Positions 46,658-55,006 of a stretch of DNA of 64,000 bases are shown one piece after another. Numbering within the stretch: the stretch's first letter is position 1; the number at the start of each line of letters is the position of its first letter. This DNA is from Lutibacter oricola (GTDB lineage: Bacteria > Bacteroidota > Bacteroidia > Flavobacteriales > Flavobacteriaceae). Location of the stretch: positions 310,001 to 374,000 of the forward strand of contig NZ_FNNJ01000001.1 in the NCBI RefSeq assembly GCF_900106565.1, in the 5' to 3' direction. The notes beneath the pieces were generated by a model. The model had not been told where the DNA came from. It made no database searches and saw nothing but the letters and a program-made list of their open reading frames with translations. Made by a program: the position numbers and the translations under genes.

Positions 46658-48070
46658 TTAAGCAAGTATTCTCCATACTTGAGTTACAATAAAACATACT
46701 GTAAAACCTAAAATTATAGGTAAAATACTGGCTATTGTAGTCCATTTAACACTTTTAGTTTCTTTATAGATGGTGTAAATAGTTGTACTGCACGGGTTGT
46801 GTAATAAGCTAAATAACATAAGATTAATTGCAGTAAGCAATGTCCAACCTCCGGCTTTTAAAATGTCTCCAGTTGCAGGAACAGATTCTAGTTCAAACAT
46901 AACTCCGTTTCCTTCTCCTACACCAGTAATAGCGGCACTCATTACAGTTAGCATAAGTATGGTAGGAATTACAATTTCGTTAGCAGGAATGGCAACTATA
47001 TATGCTAAAAGAATAACACCGTTTAGACCTAACAATAATCCAAAACCATCCATATGTAATATCATCCAATTTGCAATGTTAGAATCTCCAATGCTTACAT
47101 TAGAAATTAACCAGATAACAGCACCAGCTGGCGCAGCAAAAATACAAGCTCTCCATAAAACAATTAGTGTTCTATCTATTAAAGAGGTGTAAATAGTTTT
47201 CCAAAAGCGTGGTGGTCTATAAGGCGGTAGTTCTAAAGTAAAAGATGATACTTCACCTTTTAACATTGTTTTTGATAAGAATAAAGAAACTATAAACGTA
47301 AAAAATATACCTAATAGCGCTATAGCAATAACAGCTAATGTTGATACTGCGCCTGCAAAATTTTCAGGTACTAATGCTCCAATAAAAATAGAAGCAATTA
47401 ATATTTGCGTAGGCCAACGTCCATTACATAATGAAAAGTTATTAGTTATTATGGCAATTAAGCGTTCTCTTGGGCTATCAATTATACGTGTAGCAATTAC
47501 ACCAGCTGCATTGCAGCCAAATCCCATACTCATAGTTAAAGCTTGTTTGCCATGGGCTCCAGATTTTTTTAATAAATGATCTAAATTAAAAGCTACACGA
47601 GGTAAATACCCAAAATCTTCAAGTAAAGTAAAAAGCGGAAAAAATATTGCCATTGGAGGCAGCATTACTGCTATAACCCAAGCTAGTGCTAGATAAACAC
47701 CATCAAATAAAAAGCCACTTAACCACCAGCTAAAACCTAGAGATTCTCCAATACCTTTAAGCCACGGATAAATTTCACCAATTAATAAGTCTGCCAATAA
47801 ACCAGACGGGTAATTAGCTCCAATTATAGTAAGCCATAGAACAACAGATAGAATTAGAATCATAATTGGGAATCCCCAAATTTTACTAGTTACAATTTTA
47901 TCTAAACTTCTGTCAAATCTAAACCGTTTTGCATCTCCTTTTTTATGTACTGAATTTTGAGCAATGGTAGCAGCGTCTGAATAAATTCCTTCAGTTAATT
48001 TATCGTGAAAACCTTCACCTATTTGCCACCTTAAATCATTACTAGTATTTAATATTTTATTTGTTTTCAT
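46658..48070 (-). CDS. Split FeoB, membrane permease part
   Basis: The 470-residue protein corresponds to the membrane half of FeoB without the GTPase. A short cytoplasmic lead ([20 protein letters not shown]) precedes about eight membrane helices with two gate-type domains. The gate motifs differ from standard Feo[14 protein letters not shown] (183-195) and [11 protein letters not shown] (210-220), instead of the usual CSARLP form. It has its own start and a purine-rich site (GAAGAGAAA) 25 bases after the GTPase gene, in a different frame, so it is not a simple frameshift. Probable substrate is Mn2+ or Fe2+; the altered gate favours a different specificity from the full-length copy. Confidence 0.85.
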
Positions 48071-48095: not shown

Positions 48096-48866
48096 TTATT
48101 CTGTAATAAATTCACCAGTTTTTACAGCTTCAATTATACGTTCATCACCATCTAAAAGTCTTAAAGCAATCCATCTGCTATTTGGTACGTTTGGATAGGT
48201 AGCTTCAATTTCTAAACGTAGTTTTTCAATAGCATTATTTATGTTTTTAGGAACATTTTTTATTCTGTGTGGTTTGCAAATAATTTCTCCAGTTGCAACT
48301 TGATGTACAGTTTTTAATAATTCAGGTATTCCTTCTTTAGATCTTGCGCTAGTTGGTACTACAGGAATTCCTAAATCGCGAGCCAATGTTCTATCGTCAA
48401 TTTCAATATCTAAGCGTGTAGCTTCATCCATTAGGTTAAGGCATAACACAGCTTTGTTAGTTATTTCTAGTATTTGTAAAACTAAATTCAAATTTCGTTC
48501 TAGCCTACTAGCATCTACTACAATAATGGTTACATCTGGTTTTCCGAAGAGTATAAAATTTCTGGCAACTTCTTCATCTTGAGATGTTGAAAGTAAAGAG
48601 TATGTTCCTGGAAGATCTACTATTTTATATTTATTATTATTAAAGTTATAACCACCTTCGGCACGAGTAACTGTTTTTCCTGGCCAATTACCAGTATGCT
48701 GCTTTAATCCTGTTAAGGCATTGAAAACCGTGCTTTTACCAGTGTTTGGATTACCAGCTAAGGCAACAACATAATCATTATTGTCTATATTTATTCCTAA
48801 TTTTTTTAGGTTAGAAGCTTGGTTTAAATCACAACCTTCACAAGCACTATTAGTTGGTTTCTGCAT
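48096..48866 (-). CDS. Split FeoB, GTPase part
   Basis: The 256-residue protein is the G domain of FeoB with its helical subdomain. It shows G1 [12 protein letters not shown] (38-49), switch region [11 protein letters not shown]3 [11 protein letters not shown]4 NLMDEA and G5 TSARSKEG. An N-terminal CEGC (Cys9, Cys12) precedes the G domain and may bind metal or a partner. It has no membrane helix and must act with the separate permease encoded next. It overlaps the preceding gene by 17 bases, showing coupled translation. Confidence 0.88.
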
Positions 48867-49887
48867 GAATTTTTATTTTTTCAATTAGTATAAATTTAGC
48901 TTGCTCATTTCTAATAGCAATAGAAGTATCTCTTACTAAATATGCTCTTGGATTTCTCATTGGGCTTGTTAAATCTACCTCTATTTTGGTATTCATTACA
49001 AAACCTAAATCCAATAATCTTCTTCTAATTTCTCCTCTACATTCTCTCGAAATTCCAATTATTTTTGCGTGTTCGTGTTCTTTTAAATTTGAAAGTCTAA
49101 AGGTGTCTTTTTCTGAAATATCTTCTTTTTTTAATTCAGAAATTGTAATGTTATTAGCTACAATTGGAGCTAGAATAAACTCTTCTCCTTCAGAGTGAAA
49201 AACAATTCTTTTTTTATTTTTTTCGATAATATGTATATGAGAACCAATATGAAGATCTTCAGCTAAAATTTGTTTGTAAATAATTTCTGGCTCATCCTCA
49301 ATATGAATAATTCGGCCAATAGCACCTTCTTTAAATTTTGGTAGTGGTTTACCATTTAATTGTTCTACTTCACCAGTTTCAGTAGGAATTGGATCTCCGT
49401 GTGGATCAAACCTTGGGTTACCTAAATTTATAGCAAGCTGTTTTGTTTGCTGAGAATCTAATTTATGTTCCATTTTTTCGGCAATTTCGTGCCAATCTTT
49501 TTTATGGAAACCTGTTTTCTCTGAAAGGTATTTTTCCCACAATCTGTGCACTCTAATAATTCTAAGTGCGTAGTCCATACCGGTTTCACTTAATTTAATT
49601 TCACCTTTTTTAAAGCGTATTAGTTCCTTGTCTTCCATTTCAGAAATAGTTTCTAATATCTTTTTTGGACTGCTATTAAGTGAATTAATAATATGATCGC
49701 TACTTAGTTTAGTACCATTATCTTCGGCATGATATAGTTTTTTTAAAATATCTTCAATAAGAATTTTTGGATCTGTTTTATAGCTTTGTTGAAGTCTCCA
49801 ATAAAAACCAGTTTTAGGATAAAATAAAATGAAAAGTAGTACTAATACAATTCCAAATATAATTAATAATGTTACCGGATTTGTCAT
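48850..49887 (-). CDS. Membrane-anchored DtxR-like regulator fused to FeoA domain
   Basis: The 345-residue protein starts with a membrane helix (residues 4-23, [20 protein letters not shown]). A winged-helix DNA-binding part follows (about 40-105). The DtxR dimerisation/metal region comes next (HRLWE 114-118; His133, Glu137, Glu140, His141; DPHGDPIP 161-168). A beta domain (about 185-245) leads to a complete FeoA-type SH3 domain (about 264-338, [20 protein letters not shown]). It is followed by the split FeoB GTPase with a 17-base overlap. It may serve both as the FeoA partner of that FeoB and as a tethered metal sensor. Confidence 0.83.
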
Positions 49888-49891
49888 ATTG

Positions 49892-50560
49892 TTATTTTAT
49901 AGTTACAAATACGTTAGTGCAAACTTTTTTAGAAAGCGTTAATGTATTTCCTTGTTTTAATTGAACGGTAACAGATTCATCAAAATCAAATTTATCAAGT
50001 ACTGTTAACTCTGTATTTATTGTTAAAAAATGCTTATCTAAAAATTGCAATAACGCTTTAGAATTGTCTTTTACATTTGCAATTTTGTACAAAACATGTT
50101 GTTTAGCATCACTTAATAAAACCTTTTGTTGAATTTTTACATTTCCATTTTTGTCTGGAATAGGATCTCCGTGCGGATCGTGTGTTGGGAAATTGAGATA
50201 AGCCTCAAGTTTGTCAATAAGTGTATTTGATTTTATATGTTCTAGTTGTTCCGCTAATACGTGAACTTCATCCCAAGCATAGTTTAAATTATTTACCAAA
50301 AACACTTCCCAAAGTCTATGTTTTCTAACAATTCTAACTGCTATTAGTTTTCCTTCATCCGTAAGACTTGAACCCTTATATTTTTTATAATCTACTAATT
50401 TTTTTTCCGAAAGCTTTTTAATCATATCAGTTACAGAAGAAGCTTTTGTTTTAAGTTCTTCTGCAATTTTGTTTGTGCTAACATTTTTACCTGTATGAAC
50501 ACCAATGCTATAGATAGCTTTTATATAATTTTCTTCGGTTTGTGATAACTTAAATTCCAT
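49892..50560 (-). CDS. Metal-dependent regulator, DtxR/MntR family
   Basis: The 222-residue protein has the winged helix (about 1-75, STNKIAEELKTKASSVTDMI), the dimerisation domain, and a C-terminal FeoA-like SH3 domain. Metal ligands by alignment with DtxR are His81, Glu85, His100, Glu104, Glu107 and His108. Glu at the position of DtxR Cys102 points toward MntR-like Mn2+ sensing, while Asn11 at the first-ligand position is unusual. A TTG nine bases upstream overlaps the -7 element, so ATG at 50560 is used. It is the first gene of the split-FeoB operon and probably autoregulatory. Confidence 0.88.
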   Translation of the reverse strand: MEFKLSQTEENYIKAIYSIGVHTGKNVSTNKIAEELKTKASSVTDMIKKLSEKKLVDYKKYKGSSLTDEGKLIAVRIVRKHRLWEVFLVNNLNYAWDEVHVLAEQLEHIKSNTLIDKLEAYLNFPTHDPHGDPIPDKNGNVKIQQKVLLSDAKQHVLYKIANVKDNSKALLQFLDKHFLTINTELTVLDKFDFDESVTVQLKQGNTLTLSKKVCTNVFVTIK

Positions 50561-50566
50561 TAGTTG

Positions 50567-50574
50567 CAAATATA
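50567..50574 (-). promoter_or_regulatory. Promoter -7 element of the split-FeoB operon
   Basis: Minus-strand TATATTTG matches TAnnTTTG exactly and lies only six bases before the ATG at 50560, implying a leaderless or almost leaderless transcript. Confidence 0.6.
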
Positions 50575-50597: not shown

Positions 50598-50617
50598 TTT
50601 TTAGATAAGTCTAAAAA
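50598..50617. promoter_or_regulatory. DtxR/MntR-type operator shared by divergent promoters
   Basis: TTTTTAGA-TAAG-TCTAAAAA is a perfect 8-4-8 palindrome. Its core TTAGA-n4-TCTAA has the 5-4-5 geometry of DtxR-family boxes (TTAGG-n4-CCTAA). It lies between the -7 elements of the regulator operon (50567-50574) and the TonB receptor (50624-50631), at the expected -33 position of both. Confidence 0.65.
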
Positions 50618-50648: not shown

Positions 50649-52964
50649 TTGAAAAATTATATTTATTTACTAGCAACGCTATTTTGTACGGTTGTTTTTG
50701 CTGAAAACACGATTAATACAAGCGCTATACTTAAAGGAAAAATTACAAGTAACAATAAATCAATTCCTGGAGCAACAATTCATTTAAAAAATGGAACAAT
50801 TGGTTCTTCTGCAAACATAAATGGAACCTATGAGTTTACTGTGCCAACAGGAAAATTTGTGGTTGTAGCAAGCGCTATTGGCTACAAAACCAAAGAGGTA
50901 AAAGTGTTATTAAAAAATAATGAAACTAGAATTTTAAATTTTGAGTTGGAAGAAGATTTGTTTGGGTTAGAACAAGTTGTTGTAACCGGAACAAGAACGT
51001 TTAAAAAACAAACTAATTCGCCAGTAATTGTAAATATTATTGATAGTCAATTAATGGAGAATGTCCAAGCCTGTTCTTTGTCTGATGGGTTGCGTTTTCA
51101 AACAGGATTACGAGTTGAAACGGATTGCCAAACGTGTAATTATACCCAATTACGTATGAACGGACTTGCAGGAGGGTATTCGCAAATTTTAATAAATGGC
51201 CGTCCAATATTTAGCCCTTTAACTGGTTTGTATGGTTTAGAACAAATACCTGCAAATATGATTGATAGGGTTGAAGTAGTTCGTGGTGGAGGTTCTGCTT
51301 TATATGGTTCTGGAGCTATTGGAGGAACAGTAAATGTGATTACAAAAATTCCTAAATCGGATAGTTTTGAAGTTAGTTATACACATCAAAGTATTAAAGG
51401 TTCAGCTTTTGAAAATATGTTAAATGCCAACACAACGGTGGTTAACAAAAATGAAAACGCTGGTTTATCTGTTTTTCTGAATCATAGAAATAGAACAATG
51501 TATGATGCCAATGATGATGGATATTCTGAATTGCCAAAACTAAAAAATACATCGTTTGGTATTAATAGTTTTTTTATGCCTACTCAGAATCAAAAAATAG
51601 AGTTAAGTGTTGGGTATTTAAACGAGCTCAGGTACGGTGGTGAAATGGTTAACAAGCCTGCTTATTTAACACAACAATCTGAAGAAAGAACTCACAATGT
51701 TTTAATGGGAACGTTAGATTATCAAATTAATTTTAATAATTATAACAGTTCTTTAATCACCTATTTTTCTGCTCAAAAAACAGATAGAGATCATTATACA
51801 GGTATTTTTCCAGAAGAAGAAATTGAAATTAAAAATCATTTAGAAAACCCTCCTTACGGAATTTCAGATGTAAAAACGTTTCAAGGAGGAGTGCAATTCA
51901 ACCATAAATTATTAGCGTTTTTAAATGGCGAAAACACGCTAACTTTTGGAACTGAATTTGTTGAAGATAAGGTTTATGATGAAATAGATGCGTATAGTTA
52001 TTTAATAGATCAAAAAACAACTAATTTGGGAGTGTTTGCTCAAAGTGATTGGGAAGTTTCAGAAAAATTAAATGTATTAGCAGGAGTAAGAGCAGATAAA
52101 CATAATTTTCTAGATAATTTTGTTTTAAGTCCAAGAGTTTCTTTACTGTATAAACCTTTGGAAAGAACTCAGTTTAGAGTTACCTATGGTACTGGGTTTA
52201 GAGCTCCACAAGCTTTTGATACTGATTTACATATTGCCTTTTCTGGAGGTGGAATTTCAAGAATTCAATTGGCTAATGATTTAAAGGAAGAAAGATCTCA
52301 GAGTTTAACTACATCTATTAATTACGATAAAGCTTCAGATAATTTTATAGCAGGTTTTACTTTAGAAGGTTTTTATACCAAATTAACCGATGCTTTTTAT
52401 CAGCATTCATTAGGTGAAGATGAATTTGGCGAGGTTTACGAAAAACGAAATGGAGATGAGGCTACTGTTAAAGGTGTTACCTTAGAATTACGTGCTAATT
52501 ACAATAAAAAAGTGCAATTAGAAACAGGTTTTACATTACAATCGAGTGAGTTTAGCGAAGCTGTACTTTATGCTGATGAATTGGCAGCAAAAAAGAACTT
52601 TTTAAGAACTCCAGAATTATACGGTTATGCTACCTTAACTTATACACCAAACAAAAAATTTAATACAGCTGTAAATTTCCTTTATACAGGAGAAATGGAT
52701 GTGTTGCATTTGGCAGGAGCTCCAGAGCAATTAGAAGATGAATTTATTAAATCTCCAAGTTTTACGGAATTAGGTTTTAAATCTTCATATACAATTGAAG
52801 CAAAAAAGCTACAAACAGGGATTGAAATTTTTGGTGGAATTAAAAATATATTTGATAATTATCAATCTGATTTTGATTCAGGTAAAAACCGTGATAGCAA
52901 TTATATTTATGGTCCTTCTATGCCAAGAACTTATTTTGTAGGTTTAAAGCTGATGTCTTTGTAA
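50649..52964 (+). CDS. TonB-dependent receptor, probably for a metal complex
   Basis: The 771-residue protein has a signal peptide (MKNYIYLLATLFCTVVFAEN), a CarboxypepD_reg-like domain (about 26-105), a plug (about 110-225, VVVTGTRTFKKQTNSPVIV, then RVEVVRGGGSALYGSGAIGG) and a barrel ending in YFVGLKLMSL. The plug contains a CxxC (Cys160, Cys163) followed by NYTQLRMNGLAGGYSQI. The start is TTG at 50649. It is divergent from the DtxR/MntR-like regulator and shares its palindrome, so metal-controlled outer-membrane import feeding the split FeoB system is likely. Heme, siderophore or another ligand cannot be chosen from sequence. Confidence 0.87.
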   Translation: MKNYIYLLATLFCTVVFAENTINTSAILKGKITSNNKSIPGATIHLKNGTIGSSANINGTYEFTVPTGKFVVVASAIGYKTKEVKVLLKNNETRILNFELEEDLFGLEQVVVTGTRTFKKQTNSPVIVNIIDSQLMENVQACSLSDGLRFQTGLRVETDCQTCNYTQLRMNGLAGGYSQILINGRPIFSPLTGLYGLEQIPANMIDRVEVVRGGGSALYGSGAIGGTVNVITKIPKSDSFEVSYTHQSIKGSAFENMLNANTTVVNKNENAGLSVFLNHRNRTMYDANDDGYSELPKLKNTSFGINSFFMPTQNQKIELSVGYLNELRYGGEMVNKPAYLTQQSEERTHNVLMGTLDYQINFNNYNSSLITYFSAQKTDRDHYTGIFPEEEIEIKNHLENPPYGISDVKTFQGGVQFNHKLLAFLNGENTLTFGTEFVEDKVYDEIDAYSYLIDQKTTNLGVFAQSDWEVSEKLNVLAGVRADKHNFLDNFVLSPRVSLLYKPLERTQFRVTYGTGFRAPQAFDTDLHIAFSGGGISRIQLANDLKEERSQSLTTSINYDKASDNFIAGFTLEGFYTKLTDAFYQHSLGEDEFGEVYEKRNGDEATVKGVTLELRANYNKKVQLETGFTLQSSEFSEAVLYADELAAKKNFLRTPELYGYATLTYTPNKKFNTAVNFLYTGEMDVLHLAGAPEQLEDEFIKSPSFTELGFKSSYTIEAKKLQTGIEIFGGIKNIFDNYQSDFDSGKNRDSNYIYGPSMPRTYFVGLKLMSL

Positions 52965-54088: not shown

Positions 54089-55006
54089 CTAATTATCAAT
54101 TTCAACCTTCTTTTTCACGCTAATTAAATAAACACCCGCAATTACTAATATAGAACTTAGTATTTTAATAAAGCTAATATCTTGTGCATATTCTTTATTC
54201 CCAAAAACAAAAGCATAAATAGTAACCATTGCAAAACTAACTACTGGTTGTAAGTATATATAACTTCCATTTACACTTGGTGGAACTTTTGAAAGCGCGT
54301 AGATATTAAATAAATACGTCATAAAAGTAGTTCCGAACAAAACAAAAGCAATTACCAAATAAGTGTTTAAAGTAAAAGCATTGAAATTGGTAGAAATTAC
54401 ATCGTTAATACCTACAGGAATCATAAAAATAAACCCAATTAAAAACACCCAACTAATAACAGTTATTGGATGGTACTTTTTCATTAAAGGTTTAGCGTAC
54501 ACTAAATAAAATGCATAAAAAATAGCATTTGAAAAAATTAATCCATTCCCTAAAAGTGTACTAGTGCCTTCGTTTTTATTACCGTATAAAATAAGTAATA
54601 AGGCACCCGCTCCTCCAATAATAATTCCTAATATTTTTGTTTTGGTAATTTTTTCCTTCAACAAAAAGTAACTGAATATTAATACTAAAACAGGTACAGA
54701 TGTATAAATAATAGATGCATCAATTGGAGATGTTTTACTTAATCCGTGAAAGTATAAAAGTTGATTAATTGCAATACCTAAAACCCCACAAACTGCCAAT
54801 CTAAAATAATCTTCTTTGTCTATTTTTTCTTTAATGAAGTTTTTTATAGTCCAAAATAGAATACTTGCACCTAAAATTCGAATAAAAATAAAAGCTGTAG
54901 GACCTAATTTTTCAGGCATTATGTCTTTTGCAATAATATGGTTCATACCATAAATTACATTTGCACCTAATAAAGCTAGGTGAGCTTTGTACGTGTTTTT
55001 ATTCAA
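54089..55006 (-). CDS. DMT-superfamily transporter, EamA type
   Basis: The 305-residue protein has ten membrane helices in two EamA repeats. The first starts HLALLGANVIYGMNHIIAKD and contains LYFHGLSKTSPIDASIIYTS. The second includes VYAKPLMKKYHPITVISWVF and SKVPPSVNGSYIYLQPVVSF. EamA proteins export or import small metabolites such as amino acids. The substrate is unknown and no neighbour suggests one. Confidence 0.9.
   Translation of the reverse strand: MNKNTYKAHLALLGANVIYGMNHIIAKDIMPEKLGPTAFIFIRILGASILFWTIKNFIKEKIDKEDYFRLAVCGVLGIAINQLLYFHGLSKTSPIDASIIYTSVPVLVLIFSYFLLKEKITKTKILGIIIGGAGALLLILYGNKNEGTSTLLGNGLIFSNAIFYAFYLVYAKPLMKKYHPITVISWVFLIGFIFMIPVGINDVISTNFNAFTLNTYLVIAFVLFGTTFMTYLFNIYALSKVPPSVNGSYIYLQPVVSFAMVTIYAFVFGNKEYAQDISFIKILSSILVIAGVYLISVKKKVEIDN

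Follow-up and report, generated by a model that had tools for sequence, protein, structure and literature searches.

Which role is played by a DtxR-type metalloregulator that carries a membrane helix of its own, is fused to FeoA and is encoded beside a split FeoB transporter? Such a protein is found in the window, the 64,000-nucleotide stretch of the Lutibacter oricola genome analysed here (contig NZ_FNNJ01000001.1, positions 310,001 to 374,000), together with the features listed in Table 1. The original prediction left two possibilities: a single protein that senses metal, touches the transporter and possibly binds DNA, or a DtxR part turned into a metal-sensing gate for FeoB that no longer binds DNA. 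The reading favoured here, with modest confidence, is that the tethered protein would act as a regulatory subunit of the split FeoB and not as a transcription factor, throttling the transporter by metal at the membrane.

Table 1. Position of the tethered DtxR-FeoA gene and of the neighbouring features in the window.
Feature	Position	Strand	Description
Tethered DtxR-FeoA gene	48850..49887	-	345 aa; membrane helix, linker, degenerate wHTH, metal/dimer domain, SH3-like domain, FeoA
Membrane helix, residues 4-23	49819..49878	-	followed by FYPKTG (F.P..G motif)
Soluble DtxR/MntR	49892..50569	-	225 aa, intact wHTH; upstream of the tethered gene, same strand
NFeoB (FeoB GTPase domain alone)	48096..48866	-	256 aa; PF02421, 207.7 bits
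CFeoB (FeoB permease alone)	46658..48070	-	470 aa; PF07670, PF07664
Palindrome TTTTTAGA-N4-TCTAAAAA	50598..50617		candidate operator for the soluble DtxR; separates the DtxR gene from that of the divergent TonB receptor
TonB-dependent receptor with carboxypeptidase-regulatory-like domain	50649-52964	+	divergent from the DtxR operon

The tethered protein consists of a transmembrane helix (residues 4-22), a winged helix (wHTH, 40-99), a metal-binding/dimerisation domain (101-169), an SH3-like domain (about 186-251) and a FeoA domain (264-337). The metal-binding/dimerisation domain is recognised by PF02742 (78.2 bits, cut-off 27). The FeoA domain, described as complete from the start, is indeed so (PF04023, 74.6 bits, cut-off 23). 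PF04023 matches two stretches of the protein, and the structure model agrees with this, showing the DtxR part followed by two FeoA-like domains. The DNA-binding domain PF01325 reaches 14.3 bits, below the curated cut-off of 26; despite this low score, the winged-helix fold is present in the structure model, as the original prediction had it, and no loss of the fold was seen there. A fold comparison with VIA-align gave rows that cover mainly residues 38-252. Exactly two genes of the L. oricola genome carry PF02742, the second being the soluble DtxR (PF01325, 61.8 bits; PF02742, 103.9 bits), in which recognition helix and wing are conserved.

Membrane insertion of residues 4-23 was looked at both in the structure model and in the family, and a helix is predicted in each. 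For the family, a set of 120 relatives was used, made up of 76 of the 78 proteins of the multi-phylum set described below (filter: at least 260 aa and more than 150 bits) and 44 rows of another alignment. An N-terminal membrane helix is predicted in 116 of the 120, which rules out a chance hydrophobic stretch, and 103 of these 116 proteins have P..G in their N-terminal part. The tethered protein is thus predicted not to be soluble, as a DtxR/MntR metalloregulator would be. It had been remarked that classical DtxR proteins are soluble; this is correct, but membrane-attached DtxR domains are already known from YtgCR (PMC5599777), and PgMntR is a known case of a DtxR with two FeoA domains encoded in a Mn transporter operon (PMC4805248).

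The association with FeoB, proposed for this one locus, proved to be very general. In the window, the tethered gene and NFeoB share 17 bases, at the end of the former and the start of the latter. A multi-phylum set was assembled from the best 80 of at least 588 confirmed loci, mostly on MAG contigs, and the tethered protein is present at 78 of these 80, in 11 phyla. Within this best-80 set, the 78 loci belong to Chloroflexota (20), Bacteroidota (19), Ignavibacteriota (9), Gemmatimonadota (9), Acidobacteriota (8), Verrucomicrobiota (4), Planctomycetota (3) and, with one locus each, Calditrichota, Balneolota, Myxococcota and Chlorobiota; two loci are unplaced. The next gene is FeoB in 77 of the 78 loci of the best 80 (split in 55, fused in 22), the contig of the last one ending inside the gene, and in 75 of these 78 FeoB overlaps the tethered gene or lies at most 60 bases away. 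A second set, of 53 Bacteroidota loci, shares some genomes with the first (L037 and L088 have identical helices); the split GTPase follows the tethered gene in 52 of them and the other locus is cut. No natural fusion of the tethered gene with FeoB was found in these loci, the long spanning frames of L120 and L118 lying in another frame.

Counting its own genome each time, the tethered protein is encoded in 12 of 38 genomes of the genus (E ≤ 1e-36), 12 of 100 of the family (E below 1e-90) and 42 of 394 of the phylum (E ≤ 1e-36). This type of CFeoB occurs in 47 of the same 394 genomes (E ≤ 1e-60), which include all 42. Among the five genomes that have the CFeoB without the tethered protein, one is cut by a contig end; the other four have a free-standing FeoA directly before NFeoB (frames of 77, 122, 81 and 80 codons), with a soluble DtxR near by. 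As a free-standing FeoA takes the place of the tethered protein in four of the five, the tethered FeoA domain would be the FeoA of that system. Like a FeoA, the tethered protein is encoded with FeoB, and the gene content thus indicates that it supplies the FeoA of the split-FeoB system, with a metal sensor added. Loci L180-L183, where the same split FeoB stands with a free-standing FeoA and a soluble DtxR, represent the form of the system without a tethered sensor.

The split NFeoB also has a CxxC pair (ACEGC) in its N-terminal part, ahead of the G domain. This pair is present in 106 of 106 split NFeoB of tethered-protein systems and in 15 of those 21 fused FeoB of such systems whose G1 motif was located automatically; of four split NFeoB in systems with a free-standing FeoA, just one has it. 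Possibly, the pair accompanies the tethered sensor as a redox or metal input.

The sensor and the DNA-reading face of the DtxR part have had different fates. In the 120 relatives, H114, E118, H133, E140, H141, D161, H195 and D198 are invariant; H163 and E197 are found in 118, D46 and E199 in 116, and E137 in 96, being replaced by another residue in the remaining 24. The metal ligands noticed in the single protein are therefore near invariant throughout the set. For 41 operons encoding both the tethered protein and a soluble DtxR, the mean pairwise identity of each region was compared between the two. The recognition helix has an identity of 0.226 in the tethered proteins versus 0.546 in the soluble ones, and the wing 0.315 versus 0.522. 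The metal/dimer domain, on the contrary, is as well kept in the tethered proteins (0.636 versus 0.600), and the SH3 domain (0.484 versus 0.333) and the first wHTH helix, which carries the ligand D46 (0.634 versus 0.542), are better kept. The residues conserved in the recognition helix and wing of the soluble neighbour are lost, and the positions that do remain fixed in this part of the tethered protein are hydrophobic. The net charge of the wHTH is -3.2 for the tethered and +2.1 for the soluble proteins, with the tethered protein lower in 37 of the 41 pairs. Tethering by itself does not explain this loss, as the ABC-3 permease-DtxR fusions that were sampled keep a positive wHTH (+2.2 for 14 rows and +4.1 for 8 rows). 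At 30 loci where no DtxR was seen near by, recognition-helix identity is slightly higher (0.283) and the wHTH charge is closer to neutral (-1.3), so some members of the family might still touch DNA. In the tethered family, the sensor is kept and the DNA-reading face has decayed, and this pattern speaks for a metal-sensing gate that would no longer bind DNA, the second of the two original possibilities.

The palindrome, confirmed as an inverted repeat at 50598-50617, points in the same direction. At 66 of 96 loci (9 of the 96 being second copies from the same genome), the 200 bases ahead of the soluble DtxR contain the palindrome core, TTTAG-N6-CTAAA; shuffled sequences predict 0.45. Only 3 of the last 23 loci listed, whose DtxR is at most 46% identical, have it, and the core is thus a trait of the nearer relatives. 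Across the genome, the pattern is not enriched (90 matches versus 82 for the reversed pattern), and a second match lies within the window at 54491-54506; hence, only its fixed place upstream of DtxR counts. The core is also found upstream of DtxR at loci that have a ZIP transporter and no tethered protein. From its position, the palindrome most plausibly serves the soluble DtxR as operator. Binding by the tethered protein, which had been suggested, is not supported: the core follows the soluble DtxR, even where the tethered protein is absent, and the recognition helix and wing of the latter lack the residues conserved in its soluble neighbour. The TonB receptor shares the palindrome region with the DtxR operon, and TonB receptors adjoin DtxR in several relatives; the receptor of the window might be an outer-membrane Mn receptor.

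A winged helix, a dimer domain and a tether in one protein, with a palindrome ahead of the operon, could also describe a one-component regulator of the CadC kind, which stays in the membrane and binds DNA from there. Such a regulator is very unlikely here: the palindrome goes with the soluble DtxR gene and not with the tethered one, recognition helix and wing are unconserved in a wHTH that is acidic on average, a soluble DtxR is already ahead of the tethered gene in 48 of the 53 Bacteroidota loci, and the sampled ABC-3 fusions keep a basic wHTH.

The tether probably comes from the permeases of Mn/Zn ABC transporters. In flavobacteria, the C-terminal tails of such permeases align by BLAST with residues 2-110 of the tethered protein and have no Pfam winged-helix match; at L074-L077, both ABC-3 permeases of the transporter have tails that resemble a winged helix and lack the DtxR metal domain. 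In other Bacteroidota, permeases are found fused to a DtxR that includes the metal domain, which is the architecture described for YtgCR of Chlamydia (PMC5599777). In hhalign, a profile built from residues 1-44 of the tethered family finds the final helix plus linker in each of the two fusion types (probability 91 and 93%, E 1e-6 and 3e-7); the rest of these permeases gives no match. When windows of 46 permease residues were compared, the score was 34.8 at this site and did not exceed 8.2 in any window that does not overlap it. That any membrane helix would match is ruled out by the controls, as the reversed profile, CFeoB and the soluble DtxR gave probabilities of 0.1-0.3%. With the permease profile cut at residue 280, which removes most of the linker, the match drops to 29% (E 6e-4); the helix alone would not carry the homology claim. 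Over the whole protein, residues 3-250 align to 253-494 of a 495-residue fusion, the predicted helices of which correspond in order and spacing to those of the tethered protein (pLDDT 76). The ABC-3 permease domain PF00950 has no match on the tethered protein, unlike L160 and L166, which contain it.

A tree of 95 DtxR cores (128 columns; 42 of the cores sub-sampled from the 120-row set), in which many inner forks are weak, places the tethered family on one side of a branch (100/97) and does the same for the soluble proteins (99/97). If the soluble proteins are taken as outgroup, the tethered family groups with the permease fusions. As the final helix of the permease-DtxR fusions is the only match of its helix and linker, the tethered protein resembles the end of such a fusion with FeoA attached. 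The simplest history suggested by these alignments is that the last permease helix and DtxR were cut loose and then joined to FeoA.

This ancestry raises the question of a latent repressor, in which a protease would release the DtxR-FeoA part by a cut after the membrane helix and let it go to the DNA, as in Chlamydia YtgCR. Homology to the permease-repressor fusions extends across helix, linker and DtxR, the wHTH fold is kept, and YtgR is reported to be cleaved from YtgC and then to repress (PMC5599777). Nevertheless, a latent repressor is unlikely in view of the unconserved recognition helix and wing and the acidic wHTH, where the sampled fusions (14 and 8 rows) keep a basic one (+2.2 and +4.1). 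Furthermore, the soluble DtxR already precedes the tethered gene at 48 of the 53 Bacteroidota loci, and the palindrome core is present also where the tethered protein is absent.

The favoured reading, a metal-sensing subunit of FeoB, builds on the anatomy, the predicted tether, the conservation of the ligands, the operon, the ABC-3 fusion homology and the decay of the DNA face, all of which are computed. To these, a direct contact of FeoA with NFeoB, the direction of the switch and the identity of the metal are added by inference. At low cytosolic metal, most likely Mn2+, the FeoA domain would engage the GTP-bound G domain and the importer would stay on. Sufficient metal would fill the DtxR sites, including the SH3 residues H195/E197/D198/E199, and lock the dimer; the metal-filled DtxR dimer would then pull FeoA off the G domain, and transport would be shut. 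The FeoA of Bacteroides fragilis is reported to contact NFeoB with a GTP analogue, not with GDP, and to slow hydrolysis, and its authors propose that some downstream signal could dislodge FeoA at sufficient metal (PMC8980893). PgMntR, from the operon of the Mn transporter FB2, is described as binding Mn2+ with an overall Kd of 2e-11 M and as losing Mn2+ binding without its last FeoA domain (PMC4805248), which indicates that FeoA and the metal site are coupled there. The tethered sensor would form a fast arm of control, and the soluble DtxR, acting through the palindrome, a slower transcriptional feedback. A soluble DtxR lies directly upstream of the tethered gene at just 28 of the 78 loci of the more distant best-80 set (from at least 588), so this division of labour is not universal within the operon.

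Some observations go against the proposed subunit role. The kept wHTH fold and the conserved first helix exceed what a tether needs. By analogy, PgMntR, which is near in architecture, binds DNA, and the YtgR part of Chlamydia represses after cleavage. Ligands that stay near invariant while the DNA face decays, in a gene fixed to FeoB, would also suit a metal acceptor or chaperone, in which the ion leaving the FeoB pore is captured and buffered at the DtxR sites and FeoA only docks. We consider this quite improbable: such sites can bind tightly, as the Kd given above for PgMntR shows (PMC4805248), which is poor for hand-over, and the dimer and SH3 residues, being conserved, suggest a switch.

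For the FeoB of the tethered protein, several analogies make Mn2+ the likelier ion over Fe2+. The genus Lutibacter has, behind the same DtxR, either the three-gene cassette or a ZIP transporter, which replace each other: among 30 loci taken from 39 matches, 9 have the cassette, 21 the ZIP gene and none both. Cassette and ZIP loci (L192-L221) often have the same flanking genes. At L189 (826-2709), a 627-residue Nramp-type protein, longer than the 357-position family model, is encoded beside a related DtxR; within the genus, Nramp does not discriminate, as 35 of 38 genomes have one. A Glu at the position of Cys102 of DtxR is described as a trait of MntR (PMC4805248), and the tethered protein has E137 there. 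These ZIP and Nramp neighbours, E137 and the presence of FB2 in the PgMntR operon together make Mn2+ the likelier choice. The ZIP family is not Mn-specific, which is a point against it.

If the subunit mechanism is accepted, it may still operate with Fe2+, FeoB being by default a ferrous importer and PgMntR being reported to bind Fe2+ as well (PMC4805248). Within that mechanism, Fe2+ appears doubtful: besides E137 and the ZIP and Nramp genes of related DtxR loci, the genome has a separate complete FeoA-FeoB next door to the tethered-protein operon. The CFeoB motifs differ between the two as well, with CNGR and GCN in 72 of 72 loci examined versus CSAR and ACA in the canonical FeoB of the window, and may bear on the choice of ion.

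The closest precedents of the tethered protein are PgMntR and YtgCR. PgMntR (PG1044 of Porphyromonas gingivalis) likewise has a DtxR wHTH, a metal/dimer domain, an SH3/FeoA domain and a second FeoA domain, and shares its operon with a FeoB-type transporter (PMC4805248). All 12 metal residues listed for it have counterparts in the tethered protein, namely D46, H114, E118, H133, E137 (for Cys108), E140, H141, D161, H163, H195, D198 and E199, matched by residue number at an offset of 29 (27 for D46). As described in the same source, PgMntR was handled as a soluble protein and binds the DNA of its own promoter, and the just 18 residues before its first ligand would leave no room for a helix and a linker. 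In the tethered system, on the contrary, the membrane helix is conserved, the DNA face is degenerate and a soluble DtxR is encoded separately. When PgMntR-like relatives were sought in the order of genome G205, 0 of 77 genomes gave a match at E ≤ 1e-18; run without a positive control, this search is uninformative. The frames of 280-312 aa at L171, L172 and L174-L177, considered as PgMntR-like, are ordinary DtxR with long upstream extensions.

With the YtgCR-type ABC-3 fusions, for which the comparison was made on Bacteroidota fusions, the tethered protein shares a homologous and collinear last permease helix, linker, wHTH and metal domain, and with one type also the SH3 domain. Unlike them, it has no permease domain, FeoA has been added, and its partner is FeoB. 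Among the partners of FeoB, FeoC is a winged-helix protein. The gammaproteobacterial FeoC is described as a small-domain FeoB accessory thought to be regulatory, which resembles the role proposed here; unlike the tethered protein, it is small, cytoplasmic and without a DtxR metal domain (PMC8749426). FeoA of B. fragilis and the FeoAB fusions are also tied physically to the FeoB G domain or to the membrane (PMC8980893), but the tethered FeoA carries a metal sensor and a membrane helix of its own. As parts, a DtxR with twin FeoA, a DtxR on a permease and a FeoA on FeoB are thus already known. A membrane-tethered DtxR-FeoA protein as partner of FeoB was not found in the open-licence PMC literature, going by the titles and opening abstract lines among the matches listed.

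Taken together, a metalloregulator family of at least 11 phyla, derived from an ABC permease-repressor fusion and FeoA, would now serve as a membrane-bound metal off-switch of a GTP-driven importer, the fast arm beside a soluble DtxR, with the CxxC pair as second input. As a chain this is tentative, with slightly more chance of failing in one of its links than of holding throughout. The names on several public records, "metal-dependent" or "Mn-dependent transcriptional regulator", are put in question. If the proposal is true, the family shows how a transcription factor can turn into an allosteric subunit of a transporter. Its main interest is that a metal sensor naturally joined to FeoA would make the proposed off-signal of FeoB testable with point mutants.
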